Below are positions 6,597-24,700 of a DNA stretch of 24,739 bases, in pieces. A program made the translations under genes and the position numbers. This DNA comes from a virus: positions 1 through 24,739 of IMG/VR virus record IMGVR_UViG_3300045257_000038; one strand, written 5' to 3'. The notes below the pieces were generated by a model. That model made no database searches. It worked only from the letters and a program-made list of their open reading frames with translations, and was not told the DNA's origin. How positions within the stretch are numbered: position 1 is the stretch's first letter; each line of letters starts with the position of its first letter.

Positions 6597-6832
6597 GTTC
6601 GCTCATGCGGTTAAAGATCGTCATGAAAGAAGCGGGTCGCGGCGAGGTTTTTCTCGACGATCACAAAATTTCAGGCATCACCAACGTCAAGCTCGAGATG
6701 GGCGTCGACCAACTGAGCGTGCTGGAATTGAGGATGGTTGTTGGGGACGCGGAGATAGACGGCGCTGCGGATTGCACGTCGATCGAAGATCGCTCACGCA
6801 CCTATACTTTCGGCACGCGAGAGACAACGTGA
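6593..6832 (+). CDS. Hypothetical small protein before glycosyltransferases
   Basis: A 79-residue protein, possibly a small beta-rich fold. The core is GRGEVFLDDHKISGITNVKL, then GVDQLSVLELRMVVGDAEIDG. This arrangement resembles short unnamed proteins seen between capsid and tail genes of other phages, as remembered rather than searched. The GTG start at 6593 overlaps the previous stop as GTGA and has GAGG at 6581-6584 eight bases upstream. An in-frame ATG at 6605 is the alternative start. The last 15 residues (about TSIEDRSRTYTFGTR) look unstructured. The gene ends in another GTGA overlap that starts the first glycosyltransferase, so the two are probably co-translated. Confidence 0.72.
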   Translation: MSSLMRLKIVMKEAGRGEVFLDDHKISGITNVKLEMGVDQLSVLELRMVVGDAEIDGAADCTSIEDRSRTYTFGTRETT

Positions 6833-7506
6833 CCGGCCTCATCGGCGTCGGCCGCATCACGTGCGGCTTACGGGAACCGCGCAACCTGCGATTGCCTGTC
6901 GGCGCGATCCAATGCGATTATGTGGATGTCGACCGGCAAGGTCCGGGCTTCGCGCGCAACCAGGTGCTCAAGCAACTCATGGATGAGGGTTGCGAGTTCA
7001 TGTTCCTGTTCGATGACGACTGTTACCCGCTCATGGACGGGTGGGCCGACTACTTCGTCTCACAAAGCATTCTGACCGGCGTGCAGTTTCTTGGCTTGCC
7101 CGAGGCGTTCAAGAGCAATTTTCATCATTGCGGGCGTCATGAAGTCGTCTATTGGGATCGCATCATCGGATGCTTCAATTTCCAAACGCGCGAGTTCATG
7201 GAAAAAATCGGGTACTACAATGCGGCCTACAAAGGCTACGGCTGGGAAGATTCCGGTCGCAACCACCGTGCTTTGCGCTCGGGCTTGATCGGCAACAATT
7301 ACGGTCGATTCCCGTCGCTCTTGCGCGCGACTTCCTACATTTTCAGCGAGGATGTCTATGCGTTGAACCCGACGCCGAACATGACATTCGAACAAAAACA
7401 GGAAGGCATTGAATACAACCGGGCGATCAATATTCGCGAGGGCGCGTCGTCGCAACTCTACTATCCCTATTTGCATTACGCGCCGCCCGAGGGCTTCGAG
7501 GTATGA
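6829..7506 (+). CDS. Glycosyltransferase-like protein (GT-A fold)
   Basis: Probable sugar transferase of 225 residues. PGFARN at about 39-44 resembles the R-N segment after the nucleotide-binding start of GT-A enzymes. An acidic triplet D62-D63-D64 in FLFDDDCYP would be the DxD metal and sugar-nucleotide site. KGYGWEDSGRNHR at about 135-147 matches the W-E-D acceptor/catalytic motif of GT2/GT7-type C-terminal domains. The frame is open from 6772, but the GTG at 6829 overlapping the upstream stop (GTGA) is the better start, because the extra residues overlap the previous gene. The usual first Rossmann strand is short, so the enzyme may be minimal. The gene is coupled by ATGA to the next glycosyltransferase. 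Substrate unknown; virion protein or host envelope glycan are both possible. Confidence 0.78.
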   Translation: MTGLIGVGRITCGLREPRNLRLPVGAIQCDYVDVDRQGPGFARNQVLKQLMDEGCEFMFLFDDDCYPLMDGWADYFVSQSILTGVQFLGLPEAFKSNFHHCGRHEVVYWDRIIGCFNFQTREFMEKIGYYNAAYKGYGWEDSGRNHRALRSGLIGNNYGRFPSLLRATSYIFSEDVYALNPTPNMTFEQKQEGIEYNRAINIREGASSQLYYPYLHYAPPEGFEV

Positions 7507-8435
7507 GTTTGCTCAAGGTCGAATGCAACCCCCATACGTCCTGCGGATATCACCGTCTCGCATTGCCGTTCTCGTTGCTTGAATGCGAGCCGAAGGTGCC
7601 GATTTTCGTATTCAATCGATTGCCGGAATGTGCGCCTCGGGGGCTCGAGGCGCTGCGCGCGAAAGATATCAAGATCATCATGGATATCGACGATTATTGG
7701 GCATTGCCCGATACGCATTATCTCTATCCGAATTACATGAGCGAGATGACCAGCGTGCGGATTCGCATGAGCCTCGAGCGCGCGGATCTTGTGATGGCCA
7801 CAAATTCCTACCTTGCCGATAGGGTGCGCCCGGTCAACAAGAACATCGTCATCGTGCCGAACGCGTTGCCGTTCGATCTCGGGCAGTTCAAGCCGGGGCC
7901 GTCCGTGAGCGATTGCAGTTTCGTCTACGCGGCCGGGCCGAGCCATTACGAGGACATCGCCAGCGTGCGAGAGCAACTCGATGCGCCCGACGTGACCCTG
8001 GCCGGCGTGGACTTCAATCATCCCGAGTGGAAGCGCATCATCGAGCTCGTGCCGAACGCGCGCACGACCGGCGTGCGGCCGATTGGGGATTACATGCAAG
8101 CGTATGACCGGCATTCCGTCGCGCTCGGGCCGCTGATCGATACGCCATTCAATCGCTGCAAGTCGAATCTCAAGATGCTCGAGGCCGGCGCGCGCAATCT
8201 GCCGTTCATCGCATCGCGCAATTCGCCCTACCACTACGACGATCCGCTTGTCGGTCATTGCGGCGTGTTGCTCGCGGGAGACCTGGATGAATGGTCTACG
8301 TGGATGGATACGTTGCGTCTCGATCGGAATTTCCGCGAGCGTGTCGGCGTCGAGCTCGGTCAGTACGTGCGTGAGCGTTTCCAACTCGCCGATGCGAATC
8401 TCATCCGCAAGCAAATCATCGAGAGCTTCCAATGA
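7503..8435 (+). CDS. Glycosyltransferase-like protein (GT-B, GT4-like)
   Basis: A 310-residue protein with the outline of a GT-B glycosyltransferase. The N-terminal half has KIIMDIDDYWALP (residues 58-69), then SLERADLVMATNSYLADRV (90-108) and IVIVPNALP (115-123), which are the linker motifs before the second Rossmann domain in GT4 enzymes. The C-terminal half shows FVYAAGPSHYED (140-151) and FNRCKSNLKMLEAGARNLP (216-234), equivalent to the donor-binding K...E...A.G.P segment. It starts in an ATGA overlap with the GT-A gene and ends in an ATGA overlap with the third enzyme. Length is slightly short for GT4 (usually about 350-400). Donor and acceptor cannot be read from the sequence. Confidence 0.82.
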   Translation: MSLLKVECNPHTSCGYHRLALPFSLLECEPKVPIFVFNRLPECAPRGLEALRAKDIKIIMDIDDYWALPDTHYLYPNYMSEMTSVRIRMSLERADLVMATNSYLADRVRPVNKNIVIVPNALPFDLGQFKPGPSVSDCSFVYAAGPSHYEDIASVREQLDAPDVTLAGVDFNHPEWKRIIELVPNARTTGVRPIGDYMQAYDRHSVALGPLIDTPFNRCKSNLKMLEAGARNLPFIASRNSPYHYDDPLVGHCGVLLAGDLDEWSTWMDTLRLDRNFRERVGVELGQYVRERFQLADANLIRKQIIESFQ

Positions 8436-8977
8436 TCCATTACGTCGTTCCGTGGAAAACCGGCAACATCGGCGGCGGGATCAACGATGCGATTGCGGCC
8501 ATCGCGCCGGGGCGCAACGATTGGATTTGCGTTCGCGATGGCGACACGATGTTCCTGACTAGCCAATGGGGGCGGCACATCGAACAGATTGTCGACAAGG
8601 CCATGCTCGAGAGCTATGAGCTCGTCGGGTGCATGACTAATCGATTGCGCGCAGCGTACCAACTGCATCTCGGCTACCTTGACGATGACCCCGCCATTGG
8701 CAATCACGTTCAAATTGCGAATTGGCGTGGGAACGAATTTGGCGCCAATATCGAGGAAATTCCGACAGGCCCGATCGCCGGCATGTTCATGCTGTTCCCG
8801 CGGCGGGTATGGGAACGCGAGCCGTTCGCCGAGCGGTCGATTTACTTCGACCAGGAGTTTACGGCAAGCGTCCGTCGCAGCGGGGGCAAAGTTGGGGTAG
8901 CATTGGGCCTGTACCTGTTTCATCTCTACCGTTGGGGCAAGGCTGACCCGTTCGGATCAAAGGATCACCTGACATGA
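8432..8977 (+). CDS. Glycosyltransferase-like protein (GT2-like, short)
   Basis: A 181-residue protein resembling a compact GT-A transferase. WICVRDGDTMFL (31-42) carries the DxD-type D36-G-D38. GPIAGMFMLFPRRVWE (113-128) resembles the G...G..ML..R..W acceptor-loop segment, FDQEF (139-143) may provide the catalytic base, and H164 in YLFHLYRWG could be the late metal-ligand histidine of this class. The N-terminus IHYVVPWKTGNIGGGIND resembles the first strand and loop of phage and capsule GT2-like enzymes. It overlaps its neighbours by ATGA on both sides, the downstream neighbour being the head-tail connector, so this accessory block has no transcriptional boundary at its right end. Confidence 0.75.
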   Translation: MIHYVVPWKTGNIGGGINDAIAAIAPGRNDWICVRDGDTMFLTSQWGRHIEQIVDKAMLESYELVGCMTNRLRAAYQLHLGYLDDDPAIGNHVQIANWRGNEFGANIEEIPTGPIAGMFMLFPRRVWEREPFAERSIYFDQEFTASVRRSGGKVGVALGLYLFHLYRWGKADPFGSKDHLT

Positions 8978-21283: not shown

Positions 21284-21907
21284 GTGAAGCCGTATCGCGC
21301 GCTCGGATTGAGGGCTCTCGCCTCGGCGCCGTCGGGGCCTGTTGTCTTGTGGAATCCCGCAGACTTCAACGCAAATTTCACCCTGAGCGGCGGCAACAAG
21401 ATCGCCGTGCGCGCTGGTCCCGACGGCTGGGTATCCGGCCGCGCGGATCATTCATTCGCCTCGGGCAAAAAGTATTTTGGCGTCTTGATCGGCGGGGCAG
21501 GCGCGGATGCCGGATTGATGATCGGATGGAGCGAAGCCGCCGCAACGCTCGCAAACTATGTTGGCTTTGATACGCACGGCTGGGGCTTCAATTCCAATGC
21601 CGGCGATACCTACGCAAGCGGCGCCGGCCCATTCGCCTATGGCGGAGCTTGGGGCGGCGGCGCGCATATCGGTGCGGCGATCGATTTTGGTGCGCAAAAA
21701 ATGTGGTGGGCGATCAACAATGTTTGGCAGAATAGCGGTAATCCTGCGGCCGGAACGGGTTGGGCGTTTACTTCGTTCGGCGCATTGACGCTGTTCCCGA
21801 CGATCTCTGGTTATTTTGGCGCGGGTACTCACAACTTCACGTTGCAGGCAAATGCAACCGACAGCACCTACGCGCCGCCGAGCGGCTTCTCGATGATTGG
21901 AGTGTGA
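21284..21907 (+). CDS. SPRY-like tail fibre or receptor-binding protein
   Basis: A 207-residue protein dominated by a SPRY/B30.2-like beta sandwich (about residues 60-190). Visible landmarks are KKYFGVLIGG, AGLMIGWSEAAATLANYVGF, GWGFNSNAGDTYASGAG, HIGAAIDFGAQKMWWAINN (the D-F ... K-x-W-W-x-x-N signature) and ALTLFPTISGYFGAGTHNFT. It is Gly, Trp and Tyr rich, as receptor-binding domains often are. The GTG at 21284 has AGGA eight bases upstream (21272-21275); the open frame back to 21218 lies inside the previous gene. As the last structural gene before lysis genes, it is the best candidate for a host-recognition tip. The ligand is unknown. Confidence 0.8.
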   Translation: MKPYRALGLRALASAPSGPVVLWNPADFNANFTLSGGNKIAVRAGPDGWVSGRADHSFASGKKYFGVLIGGAGADAGLMIGWSEAAATLANYVGFDTHGWGFNSNAGDTYASGAGPFAYGGAWGGGAHIGAAIDFGAQKMWWAINNVWQNSGNPAAGTGWAFTSFGALTLFPTISGYFGAGTHNFTLQANATDSTYAPPSGFSMIGV

Positions 21908-21909
21908 GC

Positions 21910-22551
21910 ATGAATCCGACCGGCAGTCCGTCATGGTATCTCGCCGGTTTGCTCCTCATGCAAGGGCTCACGATCCTGTCAACGGTATTCATTGCGCTCC
22001 TGACGCTGCGCATGAATGCACGGAACAAGGTCAATGCACGTCGCGCGCGACGTGATCGTCGGCAAACGCGGGAACAGATCTTCGCGCGTATCGACGAGCT
22101 CTCCCATAAGATCGCGGCCAATGCTCCGATTGCGCTTAAGCCGAGTGAGGCGACAATCGAAGGACTCGATCAGGAATCGCGCGGCGTTGTCGTCTTGTTC
22201 GTGGATGACATGGCTTCGAACCGCATGCTCATGGCGCGGCGTTTGACGCGTTCGGGCTATACGGTGCTCGAGGCGCATAATGGCGTGGAAGCCCTCAAGA
22301 TGCTCTGGGGCAACAAGGTCGACGCCGTTGTCTCGGACATGATGATGCCCGGCATGAACGGCCTGCGTCTGTGCGAGGCGATCCGTGCGATTGACAGGTT
22401 CAAGCATCTGCCGTTCCTGTTGTTTACAATGGCCTACGATGAGGTAGACGGGAGTAAACTCGCCGGCATGGCTGGGGTCGATGCGTTCGTGGTCAATCCC
22501 GCGACCGTCGACGAATTGCTCAAGCGTCTGGATGAATTACTCAAGCATTGA
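21910..22551 (+). CDS. Membrane-anchored response-regulator receiver protein
   Basis: A 213-residue protein combining one N-terminal membrane helix (about 10-34, YLAGLLLMQGLTILSTVFIA and onward) with a two-component receiver domain (about 92-212). A basic linker (residues 36-60, many Arg) should hold the C-terminus in the cytoplasm. Receiver landmarks: acidic pair D99-D100, phosphoacceptor D143 in VVSDMMMPGMNG, switch T173 in LLFTM. The conserved lysine of the usual K-P motif is replaced by N196 (VNPATV), which should weaken normal activation. No DNA-binding or enzymatic output domain follows. GGAG at 21899-21902, inside the end of the SPRY gene, is seven bases before the ATG, so it is a true late gene. 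It lies directly before the endolysin. A role in host signalling or lysis control is inference. Confidence 0.9.
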   Translation: MNPTGSPSWYLAGLLLMQGLTILSTVFIALLTLRMNARNKVNARRARRDRRQTREQIFARIDELSHKIAANAPIALKPSEATIEGLDQESRGVVVLFVDDMASNRMLMARRLTRSGYTVLEAHNGVEALKMLWGNKVDAVVSDMMMPGMNGLRLCEAIRAIDRFKHLPFLLFTMAYDEVDGSKLAGMAGVDAFVVNPATVDELLKRLDELLKH

Positions 22552-22562
22552 GGAATGCGAAT

Positions 22563-23090
22563 ATGACCACGCCAACCATTGCTGAATTGTCCCGCGAGTT
22601 CGCGCGCATCCAAGCGAGCGGCGAGATCTCGACGCTTGTCCACGTTGCGACCGAGTACGCGTTTCCTGCGAGCCTCTGGATCGCGATCAACTCGCGCGAA
22701 ACGAATTGCGTCAATGAGCTCGGCGACTTCCGGCAGGGCGTCTATAACGGCGTCGGCATGTGCCAAGTCGATATCCAGCACGACATCGCCCGCAATGCCC
22801 GCAACGACGGCTCGTGGAAAACGCCGGAAGGTTTCGCCGCGTTGCAAAGTTTCGGCGCAGCATTGCTTGCGGCTAACATCGCCAAGGTGCGCGCGGACTT
22901 TGACGATCTGACCGACTACGACGTTTGGCGCATCGCGGCCGACGGTTACAACGAGAACATCCTCAACGCCGAGCACGACGCGGAAGATGGTGGCGACGAG
23001 GATCGGCGCACGACCGGGCACGATTATGGTGTCGACGTGATGGCGCGCAAAGCCGTGTTCGATCGCTTGCTCGAGGGCTCGACGACATGA
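22563..23090 (+). CDS. Endolysin, lysozyme-like muramidase
   Basis: A 175-residue lysozyme-superfamily protein (GH23/goose-type-like), expected to cut the glycan strands of peptidoglycan at lysis. LWIAINSRETNCVNE places E46 as the catalytic acid, followed by the G-V-G-M-C-Q-V-D segment (63-70), which corresponds to the G-x-G-x-x-Q-V motif. The later WRIAADGYNENILNA and TTGHDYGVDVMARKAVFDRL complete the fold. No signal peptide is present, so release depends on the holin encoded next. GAGGA at 22550-22554 lies eight bases before the ATG at 22563; the open frame from the TTG at 22548 is less likely. It ends in an ATGA overlap with the holin. Confidence 0.87.
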   Translation: MTTPTIAELSREFARIQASGEISTLVHVATEYAFPASLWIAINSRETNCVNELGDFRQGVYNGVGMCQVDIQHDIARNARNDGSWKTPEGFAALQSFGAALLAANIAKVRADFDDLTDYDVWRIAADGYNENILNAEHDAEDGGDEDRRTTGHDYGVDVMARKAVFDRLLEGSTT

Positions 23091-23440
23091 ATGCTCCCGC
23101 GCCGGTAAAGCCGCCCGATCCGGCGACGAAGCTATCCGACCGTGTTGCTGCGTTCGTCGCGGCCTCGATCATCTTCATGGTTGCCGGCGTGGCGATCTCC
23201 CTATTGTTGCGTGCCGTGCCAATAGGTAACGAGACGATTATCGGGCAATTACAGGGTGCGCTCTGGACATCGCTAGGCGTGATTGTGAATTACTATTTCG
23301 GCACGAGCGCCACGCAGCGCAAGAAAGACGACACGATCAGTAACGCACTGACAAGCGCGGCAAATCCGAGTATAACGGACGCCAGCAACCCCGCCGTGGT
23401 CACAACGACCACAACCAAGGTCACAGGAGATACGACATGA
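23087..23440 (+). CDS. Holin-like membrane protein
   Basis: A 117-residue protein with two hydrophobic segments: a clear helix at about 20-42 (VAAFVAASIIFMVAGVAISL) and a weaker amphipathic one at about 51-71 (IIGQLQGALWTSLGVIVNYY). It then turns basic (QRKKDD) and ends in a Thr/Ser/Asn-rich tail. The NYYFGTS ... KKDDTI pattern is common in small phage holin-like proteins found next to endolysins. It would permeabilise the cytoplasmic membrane to release the endolysin encoded immediately upstream. The ATG at 23087 overlaps the endolysin stop as ATGA (a second ATG is at 23091, out of frame). The gene ends in an ATGA overlap with the exported protein gene. Confidence 0.8.
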   Translation: MNAPAPVKPPDPATKLSDRVAAFVAASIIFMVAGVAISLLLRAVPIGNETIIGQLQGALWTSLGVIVNYYFGTSATQRKKDDTISNALTSAANPSITDASNPAVVTTTTTKVTGDTT

Positions 23441-23769
23441 ATGCTCGCGTTCTTGCAATGGGCCTGTTTCTCGCCACGCTTCCGCTGTGCGGATTTACCT
23501 GCGCGTCTCTCGGCGGCACGTTGCCTGCGCAGGACATCGTCGGTGCATGCTACGCGTTCGATGCCGCGTTGCCGCTCGTGGCCAAAGGGATCATGCTCAA
23601 GAAGATTCCGCCATCGGACTACGCCGCCATCAACAAGGCGATCGACTATGCCAAGCCGATCTGCGACGTCAATCCGATGCCAACCAGCCTGACCGCGATT
23701 GCGTTCAGTGAACTCCAGAATGCTGTGTCAACCCTCGTGTCCGCGCAAACGAAGCTCAAGGGCAAGTAA
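23437..23769 (+). CDS. Small exported protein of the lysis region
   Basis: A 110-residue protein with a signal-peptide-like start (MNARVLAMGLFLATLPLCGF) and a helical mature part (DIVGACYAFDAALPLVAKGI, SDYAAINKAIDYAKPICDV). It has four cysteines, two in or near the signal region (C18, C22) and two further along (C38, C76) that could pair in the periplasm. Neither early Cys sits in a canonical lipobox, so a lipoprotein is possible but not supported. It starts in an ATGA overlap with the holin. By position it could assist outer membrane disruption like a spanin, but it lacks the proline-rich or coiled-coil traits usual for those, so the function stays open. Confidence 0.72.
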   Translation: MNARVLAMGLFLATLPLCGFTCASLGGTLPAQDIVGACYAFDAALPLVAKGIMLKKIPPSDYAAINKAIDYAKPICDVNPMPTSLTAIAFSELQNAVSTLVSAQTKLKGK

Positions 23770-23809
23770 GGCGCCCGCGACAAATTCCCCTCACTACCGG
23801 AGAAACCGC

Positions 23810-24079
23810 ATGAACCTTCCGCCGCTCGGCACAATCATTGCCGATATCCAAGCTCTCGAGCCCACCATTGCGAGCGTTGTCTCCGCGATCAACCCCGCGG
23901 TTGGCGCATCGATCGGCGTTGCTGATAGCGTGCTCAATGCTGGCGCCGGCCTCTACGCGCAGTTCGAAGCGCTCAAGGCCGCCAAGGGCGCGATCGATCC
24001 GTCCGCCTGGGATGCGCAGGTTGCCGCGTTCAACGCGGGCGCCGCCGATATCGCGGCTGCGGAAGCCGGCACGACATGA
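23810..24079 (+). CDS. Hypothetical Ala-rich protein near lysis genes
   Basis: An 89-residue Ala-rich protein of unknown function. GGAG at 23799-23802, seven bases before the ATG, supports the start. The sequence is moderately hydrophobic and helical (LGTIIADIQALEPTIASVVS, VGASIGVADSVLNAGAGLYA) with an Ala-rich C-terminus (QVAAFNAGAADIAAAEAG). The hydrophobic parts are amphipathic rather than clear membrane helices. It follows the exported protein after a 40-base gap that shows no terminator and ends in an ATGA overlap with the small hydrophobic gene at 24076, so both are probably made together. Confidence 0.7.
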   Translation: MNLPPLGTIIADIQALEPTIASVVSAINPAVGASIGVADSVLNAGAGLYAQFEALKAAKGAIDPSAWDAQVAAFNAGAADIAAAEAGTT

Positions 24080-24225
24080 GCCTCGGCACACTCCTGCTGA
24101 TCGTGGTCATCGTCCTGTTGCTCGGGGGCGGCGGGTATCGCTATGGCGGACCCGTCTATGGCGGCGGCGCGCTAGGGCTCGTCCTGTTGATCCTGTTGAT
24201 CCTCTGGTTGACCGGGCGACTGTAG
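24076..24225 (+). CDS. Short DUF3309-like membrane protein
   Basis: A 49-residue hydrophobic protein. It has two membrane segments (TLLLIVVIVLLLG and ALGLVLLILLILWL) around a Gly/Tyr-rich middle (YRYGGPVYGGG) and a short basic end. This plan, with MSLGTLLLI at the start, closely recalls the DUF3309 family of very small proteins common in alphaproteobacterial chromosomes, though the middle differs from the usual one. The start overlaps the previous stop as ATGA and the stop is followed one base later by the GTG of the next gene, so it is tightly packed and very likely expressed. Role unknown; a membrane-active lysis accessory or a captured host gene are the options. Confidence 0.75.
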   Translation: MSLGTLLLIVVIVLLLGGGGYRYGGPVYGGGALGLVLLILLILWLTGRL

Positions 24226-24226
24226 C

Positions 24227-24487
24227 GTGCGCGTCTGCGGAATGGTGGGGTGCAGCCGCGAGGCATTCCGCATTCCGCAGATTTCATTTTGCGCCGAGGG
24301 TTTCCCGTACGCGGGGCGAGCGAAGCTGACGATAGACTTGCCGCTTTGCCCAGAGCATGCGGCGCAAGAGTGCGTCGATCTGATTGACAAGGATCTCTGG
24401 GAACGTCTCGATCTTGAATTTGCGAAGCTCGGCCGATCGAAGCCTGATCGCGCCTCGGTCATTCTCGAGTTCGTTCGCCTAGACTAG
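24227..24487 (+). CDS. Hypothetical small Cys-rich protein
   Basis: An 86-residue protein of unknown function. The N-terminal half has C4, C9, C22 and the CPEHAAQEC segment (C41, H44, C49), suggesting a small metal-binding site. The C-terminal half is helical and charged (DLIDKDLWERLDLEFAKLG and VILEFVRLD). The GTG at 24227 has no clear ribosome binding site; the start may rely on re-initiation from the gene that stops at 24225, or be the ATG at 24242. It is the last + strand gene seen and its end overlaps the end of the convergent - strand gene by nine bases. Confidence 0.65.
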   Translation: MRVCGMVGCSREAFRIPQISFCAEGFPYAGRAKLTIDLPLCPEHAAQECVDLIDKDLWERLDLEFAKLGRSKPDRASVILEFVRLD

Positions 24488-24700
24488 CGACAGCATCACG
24501 TAGCCGTCGCGCAATCCGTCGGCATGGCTCACATCGCCAACGGTTCGCATCATCGCCTTGCCGTCAGGGCATTCGAGCCAAAGCACGTCGCCGCGCTGGA
24601 AAGGAAATAGCGGGTCTTTCTCGATGAGCGCGGTTTGGTGGCGGCCGACGAGGCGTTCGAATGTCGGTTCGTCAATCTTGATCTTATGCGAGCGTTTCAT
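24479..24700 (-). CDS. ASCH/DUF3850-like small protein
   Basis: A 73-residue - strand protein. The pattern HKIKIDEPTFERLVGRHQTA, then FQRGDVLWLE and a final LRDGYVMLSL strand, resembles the ASCH/PUA-like DUF3850 fold (K-I ... F-x-x-L-x-x-G-R ... F-Q-x-G-D-x-L-x-L ... G-Y-V-x-L), a presumed RNA-binding fold often found in phage accessory regions. The start at 24700 is preceded on its own strand by a G-rich GGGGGA run at a workable spacing. It is the only - strand gene in the window and faces the lysis genes tail to tail, so a second transcription unit begins at or beyond the right edge. No terminator is seen between the two units. Confidence 0.72.
   Translation of the reverse strand: MKRSHKIKIDEPTFERLVGRHQTALIEKDPLFPFQRGDVLWLECPDGKAMMRTVGDVSHADGLRDGYVMLSLV

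Follow-up and report, generated by a model that had tools for sequence, protein, structure and literature searches.

A predicted membrane-anchored receiver domain at the head of a phage lysis cassette

The control of lysis by phages is understood in terms of holin clocks, antiholins and membrane energy. Receiver domains have also been described in phages: CDS-30 of Alteromonas phage V22 encodes a receiver and is classed among the auxiliary metabolic genes, with signalling as its category (PMC7289586), and the divergent receiver-like fold of jumbo phages (cREC) is linked to enzymes of NAD/ADP-ribose and never to histidine kinases (PMC7824862). In addition, several percent of the bacterial receivers are pseudo-receivers, for which a definition was given by Bourret and colleagues (PMC12632262). 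The same work states that changes of the conserved lysine are not necessarily fatal to phosphorylation. The residue next to the conserved threonine (T+1), typically a small one, governs how accessible the phosphorylation site is. Furthermore, a structure of CheY carrying methionine at T+1 is available with BeF3, which mimics phosphate (3oly).

The gene considered here, called TM-receiver, is located in the virus record IMGVR_UViG_3300045257_000038, which was analysed as a whole (24,739 bases, the window). Like cREC it represents a receiver-type fold in a phage, but it is a classical PF00072 domain; it is found among lysis genes, directly ahead of an endolysin, a setting in which V22 CDS-30 was not seen.

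The gene and its late operon

The source of the gene is a tailed phage with an ordered late region. Genes for an HNH protein, terminase, portal and HK97-type capsid protein and a long tape-measure-like ORF are followed by those for a DUF2460 protein, an NlpC/P60 protein, a GTA-type tail protein, a fibre-type protein, the SPRY protein and the lysis genes (Table 1). Three adjacent genes (6772-8977) separate the capsid gene from the structural genes that follow; two of them have weak matches to glycosyltransferase families, both below cut-off (PF02709, E 0.003; PF13692, E 0.005), and the three could serve the modification of capsid or host glycans at an unusual location. The lysis region ends with a DUF3309-family protein of 49 aa (24076-24225; PF11752, E 1.6e-6), and a small gene in opposite orientation (24479-24700, minus strand) matches phrog_986 (E 8e-8), a family with the annotation RNA-binding protein.

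Table 1 Features of the TM-receiver gene and of the adjoining genes in the window
Feature	Position	Strand	Basis
SPRY-domain protein upstream, probably a fibre-type late protein	21284..21907	+	PF00622, E 2.3e-7; relatives after tail gene in contigs L151 and L159
Shine-Dalgarno-like GGAG of the TM-receiver gene, within the SPRY gene end	21899..21902	+	sequence
TM-receiver gene (213 aa), product lacking an output domain	21910..22551	+	ORF, PF00072, structure model
Membrane helix, residues 10-33, predicted N-out/C-in	21937..22008	+	hydropathy, charge bias; helix 8-71 in model
Basic helical stalk, residues 34-71, unbroken from the membrane helix in the model	22009..22122	+	charge, model
Receiver (beta-alpha)5 fold, residues 94-212	22189..22545	+	PF00072, model, Foldseek
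Codon of D143, phosphoacceptor position	22336..22338	+	alignment to PleD and to receivers of viral contigs
Codons of T173 (conserved T) and M174 (T+1, usually a small residue)	22426..22431	+	alignment
Codon AAT of N196, conserved-Lys position	22495..22497	+	alignment
Endolysin, relative of goose-type lysozymes	22563..23090	+	profile search, relatives
Candidate holin	23087..23440	+	hydrophobic segments, cassette position; counterpart in contig L002, E 1e-6; family matches of unknown function
Small exported or lipoprotein-like protein	23437..23769	+	possible L002 counterpart, weak (E 0.002, single comparison)
89-aa protein of unknown function	23810..24079	+	L002 counterpart, E 2e-6

The TM-receiver ORF starts with ATG two bases behind the stop codon of the SPRY gene (21905-21907). 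A sequence-only reading of the window had placed the ribosome binding site in the end of a SPRY gene and the endolysin 11 bases downstream, and both statements, together with the SPRY assignment itself, were borne out by the coordinates and the profile searches. The Shine-Dalgarno sequence of the endolysin gene (GAGGA, 22550-22554) overlaps the TM-receiver stop codon. Because its own Shine-Dalgarno sequence is situated inside the SPRY gene and that of the endolysin over its stop, TM-receiver is a genuine late-operon phage gene, as had been proposed. It has the same direction as the endolysin gene and is translationally packed with it, and thus belongs to the lysis cassette by position; codon usage and GC content are inside the range of the phage's own genes.

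These data also bear on the idea of an artefact, either a chimeric join or a base error which turned the conserved lysine of the receiver into the asparagine discussed below. The gene is known from one metagenomic record and a second copy was not found, and the codons of both amino acids are one base apart. However, phage genes of the same strand follow on both sides at distances of 2 and 11 bases with overlapping translation signals, and relatives of the endolysin adjoin phage portal or terminase genes; an artefact is extremely improbable.

Protein architecture and active site

The structure of the TM-receiver protein was predicted with AlphaFold2, with the protein and nine viral-contig receivers as input. 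The model (mean pLDDT 87) consists of a single unbroken helix (residues 8-71), a disordered linker of low confidence (about 72-92) and a terminal (beta-alpha)5 fold. Residues 95-207 match PF00072 with an E value of 5.3e-21 (75 bits versus a curated cut-off of 30), and both this match and the fold identify a receiver domain. A Foldseek comparison with the PDB gave 580 matches at E<=0.001. RR468, CheY4 and CheY ranked highest, closely followed by DivK, and the TM-score of the best matches, normalised to the target, was about 0.9. The protein ends with the receiver fold and has no output domain.

One strongly hydrophobic segment only is present, at about residues 10-33 (Kyte-Doolittle peak 2.09 for residues 13-31). 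The charge of residues 1-10 is net zero, and residues 33-75 comprise 12 K/R versus 4 D/E. A cleavable signal peptide was rejected, as the N-terminus has no basic N-region. Based on this charge bias around the membrane helix and on the positive-inside rule, which is established knowledge, the protein is predicted to be N-out/C-in, and the receiver would face the cytoplasm within reach of kinases. No clear heptad pattern of a coiled coil is visible in the stalk. The anatomy given by the sequence-only reading, namely one N-terminal membrane helix, a basic linker and a full receiver fold with no output domain, agrees with these results in all parts.

The same is true for the active site. The acid pair D99/D100, D143 and T173 are present as had been read, and P147 (D+4), G151 (D+8) and the aromatic residue at K-3 (F193) are kept as well; an aspartate-less receiver was rejected, since D143 is present. 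The position of the conserved lysine is occupied by N196, and in addition to the earlier description a methionine (M174) is found at T+1. Among 68 distinct receivers aligned the lysine is present in 64, while asparagine at this position and methionine at T+1 occur once each, both in the TM-receiver protein only. From the five residues of a functional receiver (DD, D, T and K) just K is lacking, and because of its replacement by N196 the domain is, as judged from sequence, a pseudo-receiver by the published definition (PMC12632262). Phosphorylation may still be possible, because it is not necessarily lost when K is changed (PMC12632262) and CheY with methionine at T+1 was obtained with BeF3 (3oly), but it would probably be slow.

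One explanation which depends on phosphorylation is a lysis timer: membrane helix and stalk would contact the candidate holin, and host kinases or acetyl phosphate would phosphorylate D143, so that the altered state of the receiver advances or delays lysis. The retained D143, acid pair, T173 and K-3 aromatic residue are consistent with it, as are the predicted membrane anchor and the place directly before the endolysin gene with overlapping translation signals. However, the lost K and the bulky T+1 residue should blunt a phospho-switch, the papers searched contain no lysis system that uses a receiver, and no homologue was found in other cassettes, including the related one of contig L002; a timer is doubtful. 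Alternatively, the domain may act independently of phosphorylation. As a folded module in the cytoplasm it would serve the interaction with, or the dimerisation of, a lysis or membrane protein, or it would bind some other ligand. The assignment as pseudo-receiver (PMC12632262) and the unusual methionine at T+1 fit such a scaffold, and another pseudo-receiver, that of Caulobacter ShkA, is reported to be regulated by c-di-GMP binding (PMC7010744). Pure scaffolds, however, often lose the active-site residues which are all kept here except K, and there is no known partner or ligand; this explanation is rated unlikely.

Relatives, cassette heads and module exchange

As far as searched, TM-receiver was found in one phage only. 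The IMG/VR viral contigs contain no full-length homologue, and in INPHARED 48 records match the receiver part only, none of them covering 80% of the query. Likewise, no full-length relative was found in the plasmids, where only the receiver part was matched, or in 398 bacterial genomes of the sampled phylum. The best matches in these genomes (31-43% identity) span the receiver and extend, if at all, into a part of the stalk, the best-scoring named models being PleD and RcsC; the N-terminal 95 residues have no match in 299 genomes. A receiver-profile scan of viral contigs yielded seven receivers and no TM-receiver beside lysis genes. According to inspection by eye, the seven belong to bacterial-type kinase or regulator genes, several of them beside phage genes. 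The capsid protein has many relatives among viral contigs, and 50 capsid-related contigs possess neither a TM-receiver nor an endolysin relative. In most contigs with the common tail module the fibre genes are followed by genes of opposite orientation; these contigs, including L151 and L159 with SPRY relatives after the tail gene, contain no TM-receiver.

A lack of homologues in other phages had been set beforehand as evidence against the sequence-only reading, and no homologue was found in the collections searched. Anatomy, late-gene context and the lack of a described precedent stand. The two functions suggested by that reading, a phosphate sink or decoy for host kinases and a coupling of the host signalling state to lysis timing, were neither supported nor contradicted. 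Since no homologue was found, conservation supports none of the possible functions; the reality of the gene is unaffected. Regarding precedent, a described phage lysis module with such a protein was absent from the papers searched, as the earlier reading had stated, and no papers on membrane-anchored response regulators were found in the open-licence literature. For gp63 of phage N4 the term 'Receiver domain' is used in another, unrelated sense.

The endolysin alone has no significant Pfam match. A profile that combines it with its two relatives, however, has a match to goose-type lysozymes (E 8e-11), and its earlier designation as endolysin is therefore right. One relative (56%) lies in the virus contig L002, whose layout differs, with a portal-type gene after the endolysin. 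L002 contains counterparts of the candidate holin and the 89-aa gene as well, and possibly of the gene between them, in a different order (L002:4987-6522 versus window 22563-24079), but carries no receiver. The other relative (44%) is situated near terminase genes in L004, a prophage-like stretch in a MAG and the one such locus found in a genome scan with the endolysin profile. Two further scans of viral contigs with this profile revealed no new phage. Because similar lysis genes occur in an unrelated phage and in a prophage, the lysis module seems to be exchanged, which would mean a tail module of one lineage combined with a lysis module from another, and TM-receiver sits at the joint of both.

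This position, together with the occurrence in one phage within the collections searched and the loss of K, which fits decay, would be in line with a captured bacterial gene or domain that has no selected role in lysis, as a late-expressed moron or in decay. On the other hand, the frame is intact, codon usage is in the phage's own range, the fold is complete with the other landmark residues kept, and the operon packing is tight, and a mere capture is considered quite unlikely.

Small proteins with a membrane helix and a long helical extension, as judged from sequence by eye, occur where the lysis genes begin or close to this point in L095 (105 aa), L110 (about 175 aa), L002 (116 aa) and L004 (189 aa). 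They resemble TM-receiver in being small, in the single membrane helix with its extension and in the vicinity to an endolysin, but lack the receiver and any significant similarity. Furthermore, the topology predicted by charge is of the TM-receiver type in L110 and L002 and not in L095 and L004. A single comparison of TM-receiver with the L002 protein gave a non-significant E value of 0.01, and the best match of the N-terminal part to holin, antiholin and spanin families, the holin phrog_1350, is not significant either (E 0.03). The comparison of cassette heads by lysozyme and amidase family searches in 50 related contigs comprised few cassettes and gave loose support only. Position and shape suggest that a receiver was joined onto a common membrane-plus-helix part of lysis cassettes. 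Two successive small proteins of this kind, encoded by overlapping genes (L002:3871-4616), precede the L002 lysis genes. In the related phage L110 the fibre gene is separated from the lysis genes by the gene of a membrane protein that looks acyltransferase-like in sequence (L110:3002-3988).

Proposed function and comparison with known systems

Most sensor kinases are located at the membrane. The best explanation, though a tentative one, combines a cytoplasm-facing receiver on an accessory lysis-cassette protein with docking as a decoy for host kinases. TM-receiver would be an accessory part of the membrane-plus-helix type that acquired a receiver akin to the ones in hybrid kinases and PleD. 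This receiver may work by docking, with the fold, acid pocket and Asp for meeting histidine kinases or Hpt proteins kept, and would be poorly suited to fast phosphate turnover and hence no normal phospho-switch. In the last stage of infection the protein could occupy host kinases as a stoichiometric, membrane-held decoy.

The decoy is ranked first because the fold and acid pocket are kept while two positions governing turnover, those of phosphate contact (K-to-N) and site access (Met at T+1), are changed in a way unique among the aligned receivers, and also because of the predicted membrane location with a basic cytoplasmic flank, where most sensor kinases sit. The possible tolerance of receivers to such changes, the operon position with overlapping translation signals and the membrane-plus-helix proteins near the head of other cassettes are consistent with it. 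A precedent is PIT4 of Pseudomonas phage LSL4, a phage protein which binds several host histidine kinases (PMC10714779). Against the decoy stand the missing homologues and hence missing conservation, the non-significant N-terminal similarity to other cassette proteins, the stalk with no clear heptad pattern and the lack of a known target; moreover, one would expect to find a decoy of host signalling among the early genes and not among lysis genes. A catalytic phosphate sink appears as the less likely version, because a sink must turn over, and K-to-N and the bulky T+1 residue should slow turnover. The wider proposal is a lysis module with a built-in two-component receiver, held at the membrane, that reads or blocks the signalling of host kinases and in this way adjusts lysis or suppresses a stress response of the host during lysis; it is likewise rather doubtful. 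If true, lysis control would gain a new input, namely a phage protein that links lysis or late infection with the two-component signalling of the host, and TM-receiver would be a rare case of a pseudo-receiver whose biological setting is clear. Being a single orphan, the gene represents a lead and not yet a system.

CheY, DivK, Spo0F and RR468 share with TM-receiver the receiver fold, the acid pair, the phosphoacceptor Asp, the Thr and the absence of an output domain, but they are products of bacterial genes, possess the conserved Lys and have no membrane anchor. The bacterial pseudo-receivers (PMC12632262) are similar in missing one of the five active-site residues, here K, and a large T+1 residue, as in TM-receiver, is commoner in this class; TM-receiver differs in keeping all other landmarks and in being phage-encoded, membrane-anchored by prediction and part of a lysis cassette. 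Several phage receivers are present in BFVD, with alignments over the receiver part, and neither among them nor in V22 CDS-30 was a membrane-anchored protein beside an endolysin seen. The analogy to PIT4 is possible in the proposed mechanism only, since PIT4 is an early gene and is not described as a membrane-anchored receiver (PMC10714779). Phage receivers and pseudo-receivers are thus already known; new within the open-licence papers and sequence collections searched, from which it was absent, is the combination of a membrane anchor, a receiver with no output domain and a position in the lysis cassette.
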